From Nautilus pompilius (lineage: Eukaryota; Mollusca; Cephalopoda; Nautilida; Nautilidae): a stretch of DNA of 64,000 nucleotides. Location of the stretch: contig JACATO010000626.1 of assembly GCA_018389105.1 (NCBI GenBank), forward strand, positions 868,001-932,000. Reading direction: 5' to 3'. Shown here piece after piece: positions 39,829-52,964 of the stretch. How positions within the stretch are numbered: position 1 is the stretch's first letter; every line of letters starts with the position of its first letter. Both the position numbers and the translations under genes were made by a program. Below the pieces are notes generated by a model. That model saw nothing but the letters and a program-made list of their open reading frames with translations, made no database searches and was not told the DNA's origin.

Positions 39829-40560
39829 TCATGGTCTTAATGGAGTAAAGTTCAGCGTATGTGCCATGTTTTGATTGCCAGAAAGTATTCGGGGCTGAAT
39901 CGATGGCACCATGCCACTAGCAGCAATACTACCCACGGGAGGCAGAGGGGACATGTGTTGTCTGATGGAGTTTTCAGAATCATAGTACACTTTATAACTA
40001 CTGCCAGAGGCTTGTGTGCTGGGAAGTTCTGACATCAAATGTTGATGCTGAATAGTACTAATAAACGCTCCACCTTGTGGGGTCAAGCCAAGAGCCTGTG
40101 GGAATGTTCTTATCTCACTGCCATTCCCATCTCCATACTGACTGGACTGCTGAGGAGTCTGGCTAGATGATGTAGCTGTACAACCCTCTGTATTGTTATT
40201 TATTGATAACTGTGTTGTTGGTGATAAATCTTTAGGGAATTGATTGTATGACACTTCAAACTGTTGTGGATTATCTCTGCCATGTACTGCTGATGAACCT
40301 CCATTTTGCTCTACCTGAAGATTCAATGCCTGCTTATTTGCTTCCTTTCTATCTACTTTGTCTCCAGACATATTAGTAGACAAATCTCTAGGGCCAGTTT
40401 CCTTAGATGTACTTCCACTTTCATTTTCATTCTGTACTCGATGGATGGGAACCATTGTTGGTGAAGTGAACAACTGTGTATTCTTTGTTTTTCTTTTTCT
40501 TTGTCTTGTAGGGGTATCTGATGTTTCAGCGGGCTGAACTGGTTTTATATGTACATGCAT
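39829..40560 (-). CDS. C2H2 zinc-finger protein, terminal coding exon
   Basis: The exon follows a TTTTGCAG acceptor (40568-40561) and encodes 243 residues plus stop. Its first two residues, MH, supply the last histidine of a finger begun in exon 54763-54579, making a standard C-x2-C-x12-H-x4-H finger; the join is phase 0. The basic run RQRKRKTK at residues 19-26 is a likely nuclear localisation signal. Residues 57-61 (PRDLS) and 109-113 (PKDLS) both fit PxDLS, the known docking motif for the CtBP corepressor. The rest is rich in Ser, Gln, Thr and Asn and looks disordered. An upstream ATG at 40590 lies in intron sequence and is not used. The protein is probably a DNA-binding transcription factor with repressor potential; the role is inferred. 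Confidence 0.88.
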   Translation of the reverse strand: MHVHIKPVQPAETSDTPTRQRKRKTKNTQLFTSPTMVPIHRVQNENESGSTSKETGPRDLSTNMSGDKVDRKEANKQALNLQVEQNGGSSAVHGRDNPQQFEVSYNQFPKDLSPTTQLSINNNTEGCTATSSSQTPQQSSQYGDGNGSEIRTFPQALGLTPQGGAFISTIQHQHLMSELPSTQASGSSYKVYYDSENSIRQHMSPLPPVGSIAASGMVPSIQPRILSGNQNMAHTLNFTPLRP

Positions 40561-40599
40561 CTGCAAAACAAAAAGAAAACCTGAAATCAATAATCTTTT

Positions 40600-47251: not shown

Positions 47252-47879
47252 TCCAAGAAAAGAAAAGTGGACAGTCAATACAGAATGTTTAAAAAAAGGA
47301 TAAAAAAGGCACAAAAGCTGTGCTTATTTTCTTACAAAAGTCTGGCAGTTTTTAGGGAGTATAATATGAATTGTCACTATAATTACAAGCATAGCTGTCA
47401 AATGAAGAAAAAATTTTTAAAAGTTACAGAAACAGTAAAACCATGTTCAGTAAACAAAACACTGAAGAATTGCTACCAAAAAATATATGGTGGACACAAA
47501 ACTAAGACAAGATTTGCTTGATAGTAAAGAACTGTGTTGAAAGACACAATTTGCCCAGGTGGAAAGTTGGCTAGTGTCACAATAAACAGTCTCCCAACTT
47601 AATAAGTAAAAGTATTGAATTTTTAAAGAGAACTGAAGAGAAAGTCAAAGAAATTAACCCAAATCAAGGAGACGTGCAGCATCCACCAGAAGGTGCTTTG
47701 TAAAAGTGATAAGTACTTGAACCATGTGTTAAGCACACTCATTAAGCCTGTCAATTTTATTCAAATTCACCTAAAGTTCATTGCCCTGCTTGATGATAGT
47801 GCAAAGCACACATTTTGTATCATGGAAAAAGTGCTGAAGTGTGTGGGAGAACTAAATGAAGAAATCAACATTTTTTTAA
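47252..47879 (+). pseudogene. hAT transposase (SCAND3/GTF2IRD2-like), N-terminal half
   Basis: The reading starts SKKRKVDSQYRMF. It continues with SLAVFREYNMNCHYNYKH, the BED-like zinc finger of this hAT group; the cysteine pair is damaged (CLFSYK in place of CLICNE-like text). After a deletion of much of the catalytic region, TCSIHQKVLCKSDKYLNHVL (from 47672) and LIKPVNFIQIH match the conserved IHQ-LC and VNFIR blocks. The last part, KVLKCVGELNEEINIFL, runs to 47879. There the frame is cut by the inserted TTAA element, and the rest of the hAT protein resumes at 51583. Direction is plus, opposite to the host gene. Confidence 0.82.
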
Positions 47880-50800
47880 CATGCCCATCATGAGCCAGTT
47901 AGTCAGTTTCTCATTGGTACCAAAACCCAAATCATTGTGAAAAAAAAAATTTCGTTTTTATTTTTTGTTTGAGAATTTCCGTGGGTGGAGAGAAGCCGTT
48001 TGCTGCTCTCTATTTTATTTTCAGTATATCATGTGAAAAATTATTGAAAAATCTCTTCCCCGATTTTGTAGGTAGAAATTCTAGTGAAGCATTAATAATG
48101 TCTAGTAAAATGAAAGAAGCACCTTGAATTACGTGCAAATGCAAGAGAACAAGATGCCCAATCTGTTTTAGCTTCTTGCATTGTGGTTATGATTGTGATG
48201 GCTTGGATATAGAAAGCAGACTTTCTTGAAAAGCAGGTGAAGTCCAGCCTGTGAAATCAAATAATGCAGGAAAGCAATCATGTCAGTCAACTGTTTCTCG
48301 TTTGGATTCCAATGATGGTATCCTCAAGGAAGAAACTGTGTTGTCAGATGGGGCACACAGTGAATCACTGCCTAGTGAACAGTACTACAGCTGATATTGC
48401 TGGGCCTTCATCAGGGCTCATCCCAAGAGAATTGAATTTATGGAATTTTCAAGTCTTTTTCAGGATTGATGGTAACTCCACCCGCAATTTTGAGAGCAAA
48501 GAACGATGATGACAAGCCAAATTGATCTTGGAGCTTCCAAATGGCAATTTCATTGTACATTTTTGTGTTACGATTCTGCGTTTAGTATATTCTGTGTTGG
48601 TTCCATATGACATTGAAGGTCTAATGAAGGCAGTTGTGGAAAAATTGAATGGAGAATTGGGGAAAACAAGTTACGGAGATCTGTTGACTATGATGGTCAG
48701 TGTTCAACATATATTGCCACCAAGAAGTATCCAGAGAAAAGTGCTACTAGCACCTTTGTGTTCAGCTATGAGTCTAAAATTGTTGAAGACATTGATCAAC
48801 CCATTTGGTAAGATAGAATTTCAAACAGGCATCACAAATTATCAAAGGTTGATTGCCAGACAGAAGATACAAAACCCAGAAAACAGCATATGTCATTATT
48901 AAGAATCAAATGTCCAGAAGGCTGTAGAATTTATTTCTTCACTGACGAATATAAAAACTCTGTCATGGGAACAGATACTTTTTTGCTTGATGGAGAAGAA
49001 TTAGTCCTGCCACAATTTATGCAAATGAGAATCAAAGAGTTTGTCTACCACGACTATTTGGAATGAGTGCTAGTGAGGATAGAATTTCATGCGGATCTTT
49101 TATGAAGCTTCTTTCTTCATTGACATCTTTTGATCAAAAAGCTCGAAAAGCAGTTGATTATGCTGGTGAAATTTTACTTTATGACAATTTAGATATGCTC
49201 AGCAGAATAATTAGTACCTTGGTGGATGAAGTGCAGCAAGCTCTATGTTTATGTTCATGAAATATGGATTTGACAACATGCATCTGGAAAAAGATCATTC
49301 TCCATCTCACGACTTGGTTTTTGCACTGTCAAAACATTCAACAGAAAGCTGGGGTGTACAATGCAGCAAGTGTCAGATTCCGTTTCATATTAAGCATCTC
49401 CTAAGAAAAATGACTGACGGAAAGCCCCATAGTTTGTTATGTAATTGCAAGGATAAGTTGAAACTTATGATTGCCACATAGCTTGCATGCACAATCAGAA
49501 AAGCCAAATCACATCGGTACACAAAAATCTTGCAACAGATGAAGTGATCCTTGTTATCAACTACAAGATGAAGTATGAACCTGTATATTTCTGAGAAAAT
49601 ATGGAGCACTACAGGAAAAATGGCATATCATGGCTTGGATATATGGTCTACACACATGATTCCACCACCAATAACAGATACAAGACTGCATTGCCTTCCT
49701 TTCCATTTACAAAAATGTGATGCGTTTGAAGCATTTTCCAAATGAAAGAAAAAGTTACATGCAGTCAGACAATGCAAAATTCTACCAAAATGGTGTCTTG
49801 CTCTTGAGTATGCTGTTAGTGAATAGGAAACATGGTTTGGAACTCAGAAGTTATGTCCACACTGAAATGCAAGATGGTAAAGGACTGATTGATGCACATT
49901 TCACCATCGCCATGATGTTGGTAATGACTTTCATGAATATGGGATTTAATGTCATTTCTCCAATGCAGCTATTTGAAGCCCTTCAAAGTAATGGTGAACT
50001 TCAGAACACGATGGTTTTCCTGTTTACTCTGTTTCATAATAAAGTTTATCAATTGTTGGGCCAGCATTACAGTCGTACTTTCAGATTCTTTGGTAAGATC
50101 AAGAGATCTAATGAGGTGATTGTTGATGGTGATCAGCTGCATTTGTAGGAGTATTCATCCATTGATCCAGTGGGTATCGATATCTCGAACATTGGAGATC
50201 CAAAGTTTGCAAGTGCTCGCCCTGGTGCATCTGATGAAGAACTCAATTGTGGAGAGGATAAGAAAGTTGATGAATGGTAGGCGACGAAGTAATTCATGAA
50301 AACACTGATGAGGAATACATGACATTAGCCATGGAAGAACAAGAAACAAGAGCAACATTGACAGGACGTTTTTTCGTAACCAGCTTGATGAATGGCAATG
50401 CACTTCAAAATGGTAGACCCAAAAGCAGCAATAGGAAGAAAAGATGTGGTAATGTTTTTCAGGTTCATAATGGATTTAGAAAGAGACAGCATCAGTGGGA
50501 GGAAACTGGTACGTTGGATGATCAGGGCCATGATGCATTGCAGCATGAAGATGAGACTAAAATGAATGCTATTGTCTGTACATTACAACATGATTATGAG
50601 AACAAGGACTCCAAATGCAGTGTAAGAAGATTTTTGCTTGCACCATCACGAAAACGAGTGTGCAAAAATGTTAGATACAGCAATGATCTTTTTTCATTCG
50701 ACATGCTACCAAGCTCGTGAGTGAAGGAAAGGTTGAGCATTTGTAGACGAATGCTGCCCAATGAGGCAGTGATGATACAGATTCTATTAGCATGAGTGGC

Positions 50801-51578
50801 AAAGTTGAGAACGAGGTGGAAACAATCCTGGAAGACTATATGACGGAAACCTTCCTGTCTGAATGGGCAAGATGACCTGTGTATGGTAAAATTTATGGTG
50901 CCAAGTACATTGAAAAATTCAGAGGATTACAAGAAATGTTTATAAAGGAGGTCAAAGGCAAGAGAAACAAAATGGGTCCAGGTCGAATGCTTGAAGCTTT
51001 GTCAAAGAAGTACCTCGATCGATCTGACCTTCCTTCAGATACTGAAATTCAACAGTACATCACAAGTTTGACAGCAAAATTCAAGAAGTATCGGTTGTTG
51101 AATATCACAGTATGAGGAGTTCAGGAGCCACTCCAATCGACAATAATGAGAATTGTTACAGCCAGCAACTACGCAACTAGTTCTGCAGCAGCACTGGTGA
51201 TGTTCAAGGAAGATAGTCAGATGAACAGCTTTCTTTCCAATGCTAAAATTAAAAGTTTTATCAATTTGTTGAAGCAGAATGGGAGGTGGCGCACAGCAGA
51301 TAGTCAGAATAGATAAGGTGCGCTGCCTGCTTCCCATGTTGTATTGCCTTGTGACTATATTTACATACTTTAGTATACATTTGTACTGTGTAGTGCTGAA
51401 AACTCAAATGCCTTTAACCCTTTCTGTTTTTTCAATTTACGTTCCAAAAGACATTTTGAAATCTGAGAGATGCAATACATTCAATAACACTATTTCGGTT
51501 GCTTCCACAATGACGACCTAGGTAATATCAACAACCCCATAGTAAAGAATGACTACCTGGCTTGTGAGGGAGGGTGTG
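47880..51578 (+). mobile_element. 3.7-kb TTAA-flanked DNA transposon nested in the hAT element
   Basis: TTAA lies at 47876-47879 and again at 51579-51582. Between them a 3,699-bp unit has imperfect inverted ends. The left end reads CATGCCCATC then ATGAGCCAGTTAGTCA. The right end, read inwards, reads CACACCCTCCCTC then ACAAGCCAGGTAGTCA. The hAT protein reading stops at the left TTAA and resumes after the right TTAA, which independently fixes the boundaries. TTAA duplications occur in piggyBac and Kolobok elements, among others. The ends start with CAY rather than CCY, and I do not recognise the encoded protein as either family, so the superfamily is left open. The interior is listed separately. 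Confidence 0.8.
48134..51115 (+). pseudogene. Protein of the nested TTAA element: CXC-like cluster, possible RNase-H-like core
   Basis: Open pieces in changing frames line up as one decayed protein. At 48134-48226 a cysteine cluster (CKCKRTRCPICFSFLHCGYD) resembles CXC-type zinc domains. At 48904-49065 RIKCPEGCRIYFFTDEYKNS appears, followed by an acidic FLLDGEELVLPQF run. At 49060-49480 come a helical segment and a CSKCQIPFH zinc-ribbon-like motif. At 49717-50148 YMQSDNAKFYQNGVLLLSML leads into HTEMQDGKGLIDAHFTIAMM, a D-N plus E-DGKG-D arrangement as in RNase-H-like integrase cores. At 50879-51115 the block MGPGRMLEALSKKYLDRSDL closes it. I have a memory of similar uncharacterised proteins in molluscs and cnidarians but cannot name the family. 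The many frame changes and stops make it a pseudogene. The assignment as a transposase is inferred from the terminal repeats. Confidence 0.6.
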
Positions 51579-51582
51579 TTAA

Positions 51583-52180
51583 AAATGAAGAAAAAAATCC
51601 TCAGCTAAATGATGCAGATTAGCTCTTTGACTTCGCTGTTGATGTTATGGAGGCATTTAAATGAATTGAACCTGAAACTGCAGGGTTGCACATGAACTGC
51701 ACTCAACTGTGAAAGCATTCAAAGTCAAACCACTCCTGTTTTAAAGGCAGTCAAAGGACAATGTGTTTTGCACATTCCCTAACTTTGCAGAATAAGTATG
51801 CAGCAAGATGCTGAATGATTTACATGAGAAGCTTTGCCATTAGTTTGTTGACTTTAAGAAAATTGAAGAGCTGGAGCTGCTGTCTTGTCCATACCTCTGA
51901 CTGTAAGAAAGCTCCAGACTTCAAATAGAACTTATCAAATTACAATGTCATTCACAGCTCTTCAATTCTAAGAGCCTACAAAGGTTTTACTCATCACTGA
52001 ATGAAACAAAATTCTCTAATCTGATAGATTTTCCCAAGAAAATGCTGGTTGGCATTGTTTGGTTCCATCTATGTTTGAGCAAACATTTTTTATTGAAGAA
52101 CAGCAACAGGCTGAAGCTGGTTCACAAATAACTGATGAACAACTAGGAGCAATACTGCATATCTCCATATTAGAATAGGT
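51583..52180 (+). pseudogene. hAT transposase, C-terminal half
   Basis: Resuming after the right TTAA, NPQLNDAD then LFDFAVDVMEAF match the WL-DFAF-VDVM block of SCAND3/GTF2IRD2-type hAT transposases. Next come HELHSTVKAFKVKPLLF, MLNDLHEKLCH, FVDFKKIEELELLSCPYL and RLQIELIKLQCHSQL. The final part, FSNLIDFPKKMLVGIVWFHL, corresponds to the dimerisation region, where intact copies read FPNL...LFGSTYVCE. The FGSTYxCE signature is eroded. Several stops and frame changes are present. Together with 47252-47879 it accounts for one hAT gene split by the nested insertion. hAT terminal repeats and 8-bp duplications were not identified. Confidence 0.82.
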
Positions 52181-52964
52181 GCATCACTTAGAAAAATTTT
52201 AAAATCTACAGGCAGCTTCACATTTCCCACTGAGATGTTGGTACAGTGTTTTATTTATTCTTATTTAAAGAGAAAAAAAAAAAAAAACAGACACAAACCC
52301 TCATACTCTTACATTTTAAATGCCTCAGAATGCATCAATAATTGTAAATTACTTAGTTTTTAAAATACATTTTTGATATATAATCCATTTTTTCAGATTA
52401 AATATGGCCTTCCAAAACCTGAATCCTGGACCTTCCCTGCCATGCATCACATCCATTAACCCTGTTGTGTTGTGAGAGCCTTGGTTTCCCTACCCCTGTC
52501 TGGGGTATTACCTTGCCAGGATAGTATCACACCAAAGACTTGTAAGCAGTTGCTAGCAGCCAAGATGTGATTCAAGGTCCACTATTTCCATTGATCTGAT
52601 TGTCAAACAATGGCTAGGCAATCACAGAAACCAAAATGAATTCCAAACAGTCTTACTTGAAGAAAAAAAAAGTAAACATTAATCCTTACATACAAATTCT
52701 AAGCTAAATAAAAACTGAAGTTGGGAGTGGACAACAAATTATACAAAATCAAACAAGATGTTCAAGTCAGTATTTATGTTAGTTTGAAAAAGTTTGAAAA
52801 TGTTCATAAATCTGCAGTAAATGTGAAAACCCTTGAAAATTAAATAAATATTTTTCTTTTAAAAAATTACAGAAAAGCAGATGCTCACTTTGAAATTTCA
52901 TTGGTTAATTTTGAAAACACTGAACAAAACTAACATTAATTAATTCTGAATTTAAAAAATATAT

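Follow-up and report, generated by a model that had tools for sequence, protein, structure and literature searches.

The window analyzed here is a 64-kb stretch of the Nautilus pompilius genome (contig C602, positions 868001–932000), compared with the whole assembly of 727.6 Mb in 2558 contigs. Within it, positions 47880–51578 are a real transposon with exact ends, inserted into a copy of an older repeat and bounded on both sides by TTAA, as an earlier note made from the letters of the window had proposed. The junctions and their surroundings read as follows.

47252..47879, forward strand: left portion of the host repeat, which is older than the insert (hAT in the earlier note); 44 stretches of this genome match it, itself counted
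47876..47879, no strand: left TTAA copy of the target site duplication; a single CTTGG or CTTAG site in uninterrupted host relatives
47880..51578, forward strand: whole inserted transposon, 3699 bp, delimited by same-genome matching stretches and ends
47880..47911, forward strand: left terminal inverted repeat, family form CAYGCCCCTCAYGAGCCAGGTGGTCAC
51546..51578, reverse strand: right terminal inverted repeat
51579..51582, no strand: right TTAA copy of the target site duplication
51583..52300, forward strand: right portion of the host repeat; 50 stretches of this genome match it, itself counted; joined to the left portion without a break in contigs C1798 and C2307

Aligned locally with each other, the left and right ends of the window copy score 33, barely above the maximum of 32 among 585 TTAA-anchored pairs drawn at random from the window, so the proof of the boundaries rests on other copies. 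With 40 of 324 first-look candidates scored, a search of the same genome with the insert gave at least 75 matching stretches; the count includes the window copy itself, and a single copy often accounts for several stretches. Seven other long stretches match the insert at 77–81% identity. We examined 39 loci for their ends (L001, the window copy, and L009–L046), anchoring each on inner bases and then inspecting the predicted end. Of the ends that could be scored, 15 of 31 on the left and 21 of 32 on the right had TTAA exactly at the predicted position, against a chance level of 1.1% in the flanks of the same loci; within 2 nucleotides (nt) it was found at 20 and 24 of these ends, against 5.4%. 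Among the 25 loci with both ends scorable, TTAA was exact at both in 10 and near at both in 15, and the non-matching ends include some with TTAA a few bases off and some without any TTAA. Moreover, 48 TTAA-bearing flanks, collected with TTAA offsets of −3 to +1 allowed, were unrelated to one another (over 1128 pairs the median score was 13 and the highest 29 of 72), and the two positions preceding TTAA were T in 36 and 35 of the 48. Taken together, the TTAA at predicted ends and the unrelated flanks identify 47880 and 51578 as the termini of a mobile family with a preference for TTTTAA-like sites. Its inverted repeats are short and imperfect, with ends mostly CA or CC (terminal dinucleotides at the 48 ends: CA 29, CC 10, TA 3, CT 2, and GA, CG, TG and TT 1 each).

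The earlier note had called the unit an authentic mobile element with exact boundaries and a TTAA duplication, and had suggested a same-genome search for copies sharing its end bases at other TTAA sites; such copies were found, dispersed and in unrelated flanks, and in none of those examined did the similarity extend past 47880 or 51578.

Both host flanks lie on one strand within 20 kb of each other at 14 other places, with a gap of 99–423 bp at 12 of them and of 1.7–1.8 kb at the remaining two (C2131 and C967). Two of the 14 places, read at sequence level, cross the site uninterrupted (C1798, GTTCTTGGAAATGA; C2307, GTTCTTAGAAATAA), while the window at the same site reads TTTTTTAA, the insert, and then TTAAAAATGA. 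Since both relatives are continuous without the insert, the host copy had a single TTAA and the repeat predates the insertion, in agreement with the earlier note; that TTAA had perhaps arisen by mutation of a CTTGG/CTTAG-like site. Nor was the insert seen as a normal intron of other host copies. That the boundaries mark an intron or an assembly join in the host repeat may be regarded as refuted, since many copies share the same ends at unrelated sites and host copies exist without the insert, although the host frame is indeed out of phase beyond it.

This last point bears on the frame argument of the earlier note, which had the host protein resuming at NPQLNDAD: when the two flanks are joined at a single TTAA, the translation runs on as INIFLKMKKK, and NPQLNDAD is encoded in a different frame. 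The hAT label of the host repeat was likewise left unconfirmed; it rests on motifs, and a Pfam scan of the decayed flank readings tried gave nothing above the cut-off. Matches to PF05699 occur elsewhere in the genome; of 3065 candidates 150 were scored, and inspection by eye placed none of the matches at the flank copies. As a separate observation, many hAT dimerization-domain matches have identical scores, several of them in open frames of about 618 amino acids (aa), suggesting a recently multiplied hAT family.

From ten long copies among the 39 loci a majority consensus was built, whose main frame has 891 codons and starts with MSSKTKEVPRITCKCK; the longest stretch without a stop spans 963 codons, against at most 185 in 200 mononucleotide shuffles. 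Another consensus frame holds an additional coding stretch of 183 aa, and the protein would have had roughly 1.1 thousand aa if the two coding parts are one. In the window, tblastn of the consensus on L001 (window position = L001 position + 46379) recovered remains from 48098 to 51310 in eight blocks, each of more than 60 aligned residues, distributed as follows.

48098..48379, forward strand: transposase remains, consensus residues 1–94, N-terminal cysteine (Cys) cluster (tblastn)
48378..48989, forward strand: transposase remains, consensus residues 95–298 (tblastn)
49066..49681, forward strand: transposase remains, consensus residues 326–539 in three frames; the position of the putative first catalytic aspartate (Asp) is Asn (VINYKMKYEP)
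49681..50274, forward strand: transposase remains, consensus residues 554–753, with the putative second Asp (QSDNAK) and third Asp (GLIDAHF)
50274..50642, forward strand: transposase remains, consensus residues 754–879 (tblastn)
50768..51310, forward strand: C-terminal transposase part (GKIYGAKYIE...MGPGRMLEALRKKYPD...) (tblastn)

The Cys cluster comprises consensus Cys 13, 15, 20, 23, 26, 29, 31 and 33. The C-terminal part might, as a guess, have bound DNA; its match to the helix-turn-helix domain DUF4817 is weak (E 0.059) and below the cut-off.

The ten long copies lie at a Kimura two-parameter distance of 0.088–0.119 from the consensus (window copy 0.111), and the decay is even across codon positions (9.5, 9.0 and 9.9%), the pattern expected if the copies have been inactive from the time they inserted. 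The window copy, which has lost its first Asp, is neutral debris. Several shorter forms recur with common breakpoints: one of about 0.66 kb, in which the left end to about position 253 is joined to about 3289, at 12 loci (L035–L046, with small differences, the largest in L037 and L046); one of 0.8 kb with junction 243/3125 (L033, L034); and one of 1.4 kb with junction at about 1185–1206/3492 (L022, L023, L024, L029, L032). Breakpoints common to several copies suggest that the deleted forms multiplied by means of a transposase made elsewhere, and these internally deleted forms were thus probably moved in trans.

The consensus protein also found weaker relatives in the genome, at 31–45% aa identity. 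One of them (L077; G000:C352:641100-646900) matches at least 133 stretches, with 113 of 342 candidates scored, and represents a second family. Its ends resemble those of the first family and also lie at TTAA; they were taken from three elements only (L077, L078 and L079), chosen by eye among several TTAAC sites: L077 and L078, units of about 3.4 kb, start with CACTG after TTAA, with AGCC slightly further in, and on the opposite strand their other ends read CAGTCGG..AGCCAG and CAATCAG..AGCCAG, again after TTAA; L079 has a right end of CCGTCGG after TTAA and a less clear left end.

Across both families the core carries the motifs V(L/M)D(Y/F)KMKxE, SGDxKQD, QSDNAKCYQ, TQDGKGxxDxHFxI, NMGxNVI and SNGG, each decayed in some rows. 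The candidate catalytic acids are consensus D498, D585 and D626, with 86 and 40 residues between them, and these conserved motifs suggest a DD40D triad. In the alignment (A2), among rows with letters at the column concerned, the first position is Asp in 7 of 11, the second in 12 of 15 and the third in 12 of 16. Mainly from these motifs and from the behavior of the element we infer that the protein was a ribonuclease H (RNase H)-like transposase of the three-aspartate (DDD) type. Two weak AlphaFold models agree with this in part: model 1, of low confidence, has the element order b-b-b-a-b-a-b-a, which is the RNase H order, and each of the two models places the second Asp after a strand and the third at the start of the next long helix, where they would be expected. 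In a Foldseek search, 18 of the top 20 rows for model 1 were human or simian immunodeficiency virus integrases and one more was the maedi-visna integrase, with none at E ≤ 0.001; piggyBac and hAT transposase structures are absent from the structure-search rows shown, an absence that excludes nothing.

In this context, the unit is with good probability a dead copy of a TTAA-specific cut-and-paste transposon that encoded a DDD RNase H-like transposase. The transposase would have bound the inverted repeats of roughly 27 bp at the element ends and then cut the element out; the latter would have been joined to staggered 4-nt breaks at TTAA, whose repair would duplicate the target. Deleted forms would have been mobilized in trans, and the window copy would have entered a TTAA-bearing copy of the host repeat and then decayed neutrally.

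Several observations count against such a transposase. Three copies (L013, L016 and L019) have Gly in place of the third Asp, one off-frame L077 row has Arg there, and a conserved Glu at position 654 (E in 11 of 15 rows) offers a possible alternative third acid. Both AlphaFold models are poor, with a mean predicted local distance difference test score (pLDDT) of 53.3 and 52.6 and a predicted template modeling score (pTM) of 0.35 and 0.34; the first Asp is off-strand in both, model 1 placing it in a helix of low confidence and model 2 in coil, and the models therefore leave the triad apart. The Foldseek list for model 2 is mixed, with no match at E ≤ 0.001, and in the VIA comparison tRNA-synthetase editing domains and other folds outscore integrases. 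Furthermore, a relative that would name the family was found in none of the searches made. As a side observation, L013 and L016 share a deletion near the C-terminal part, and L013, L016 and L019 may be a subfamily that moved after losing the third Asp.

The searches for known relatives covered several collections. Pfam scans of the consensus, of 17 alignment members and of natural fragments gave nothing above the cut-off, and the PDB sequence searches gave no relative, only a histone at E 0.62. With the 206-aa consensus core as query, no relative was confirmed in genome_contigs, phages or plasmids; in viral_contigs, none was confirmed with a second-family protein or with the end pattern. Scattered sub-threshold Pfam matches were taken as chance (among them DUF4817, 0.059; DUF2452, 0.026; Glyoxalase_5, 0.01; Gag_p24, 0.0086; AP1AR, 0.0013; BRX, 0.00077). 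The passages available of the open-licence literature searched held neither a description matching the family nor a statement of the Sola3 target. The element reads as a TTAA-specific cut-and-paste transposon whose transposase lies outside the curated profiles searched. Since the Pfam scans made gave no match, Pfam-based annotation pipelines would leave both families (at least 75 and at least 133 stretches) unnamed.

As to superfamily placement, the lineage is perhaps Sola-like or undescribed. Sola3 elements use TTAA, and similar SDG and GKGxxD motifs occur in other Sola-like proteins. Membership of the Sola superfamily, perhaps of Sola3, is our best guess, held tentatively and at somewhat less than an even chance. 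The motifs of the element read D..D..D, and Sola transposases are described as DDD enzymes that give 4-bp duplications (PMC10741241), some Sola2 duplications being AT-rich, AWWT (PMC3627910). On the other hand, the likeness is one of description, and Sola appears restricted to bivalves in a mollusc survey whose main text does not mention Nautilus (PMC10294476).

It is possible, though we think it rather doubtful, that both families make up an undescribed superfamily of TTAA-specific transposons. Such a group would be marked by CA..TG ends, an AGCCAG core, an N-terminal cluster of eight Cys, a DD40D RNase H-like core with the motifs KMKxE, SDNAKCYQ and TQDGKGxxDxHF, and a C-terminal MGPGRM region. 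If so, TTAA targeting would have arisen, or been kept, in another lineage beside piggyBac and Kolobok.

A divergent Kolobok element is improbable. Kolobok does duplicate TTAA and is present in molluscs among others, and its termini are 5'-RR..YY-3' (PMC9587614), whereas two purines were found at only 1 of the 48 TTAA-bearing ends. The consensus also lacks a C/DxxH motif between the second Asp (585) and E654; the first lies at 706 (DQLH) and would become relevant if the last catalytic acid were in fact located beyond it. Moreover, in the mollusc survey Kolobok is almost confined to bivalves (PMC10294476). The earlier note had seen no likeness of the protein remains to Kolobok, and this stands as regards the end dinucleotides and, with the reservation just given, the missing motif, the two being set apart by description, not by profile.

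A divergent piggyBac element is less probable still, and very unlikely. The TTAA duplication, the DDD motifs and the initial C at 42 of the 48 TTAA-bearing ends speak for it. Against it, PF13843 has at least 116 matches in the genome, decayed copies included, of which by eye none falls at the element loci (842 candidates, 116 of them scored). The consensus, the 17 alignment members and the natural fragments, scanned directly, gave no PF13843 match; since so few of the candidates were scored, the direct protein scans weigh more. The remark in the earlier note that the protein remains are unlike piggyBac is therefore upheld for the consensus, the copies and the fragments. Several intact-looking piggyBac frames (500–605 aa, no stops; e.g., in C2029, C1332 and C1042) coexist in this genome with the dead TTAA family.

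Elsewhere in the window, an open frame of 256 codons rich in Ser, Gln and Thr lies at 39829–40599 on the reverse strand. It is the longest of 13 stop-to-stop frames of at least 110 aa in the window and may, as a guess, represent an exon belonging to a host regulatory gene.

In comparison with known systems, the element resembles Sola, by description only, in its 4-bp duplication and in motifs that appear to be of the DDD type. Like Kolobok it duplicates a TTAA target, but its ends are CA or CC instead of RR, and no C/DxxH separates the second Asp from the candidate third acids. With piggyBac it shares the duplicated TTAA target, cut-and-paste movement and a putative DDD motif, whereas it has no match to PF13843 (DDE_Tnp_1_7) and its ends read CAYGCCC. 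The piggyBac transposase has a DDD motif and a C-terminal Cys-rich domain (PMC9499001), in contrast to the N-terminal Cys cluster of the element. TTAA specificity makes piggyBac both a useful gene vehicle and a puzzling enzyme, and the same target served by a transposase outside the piggyBac profile provides an additional case in which to study the recognition of TTAA and the number of times it has been invented.

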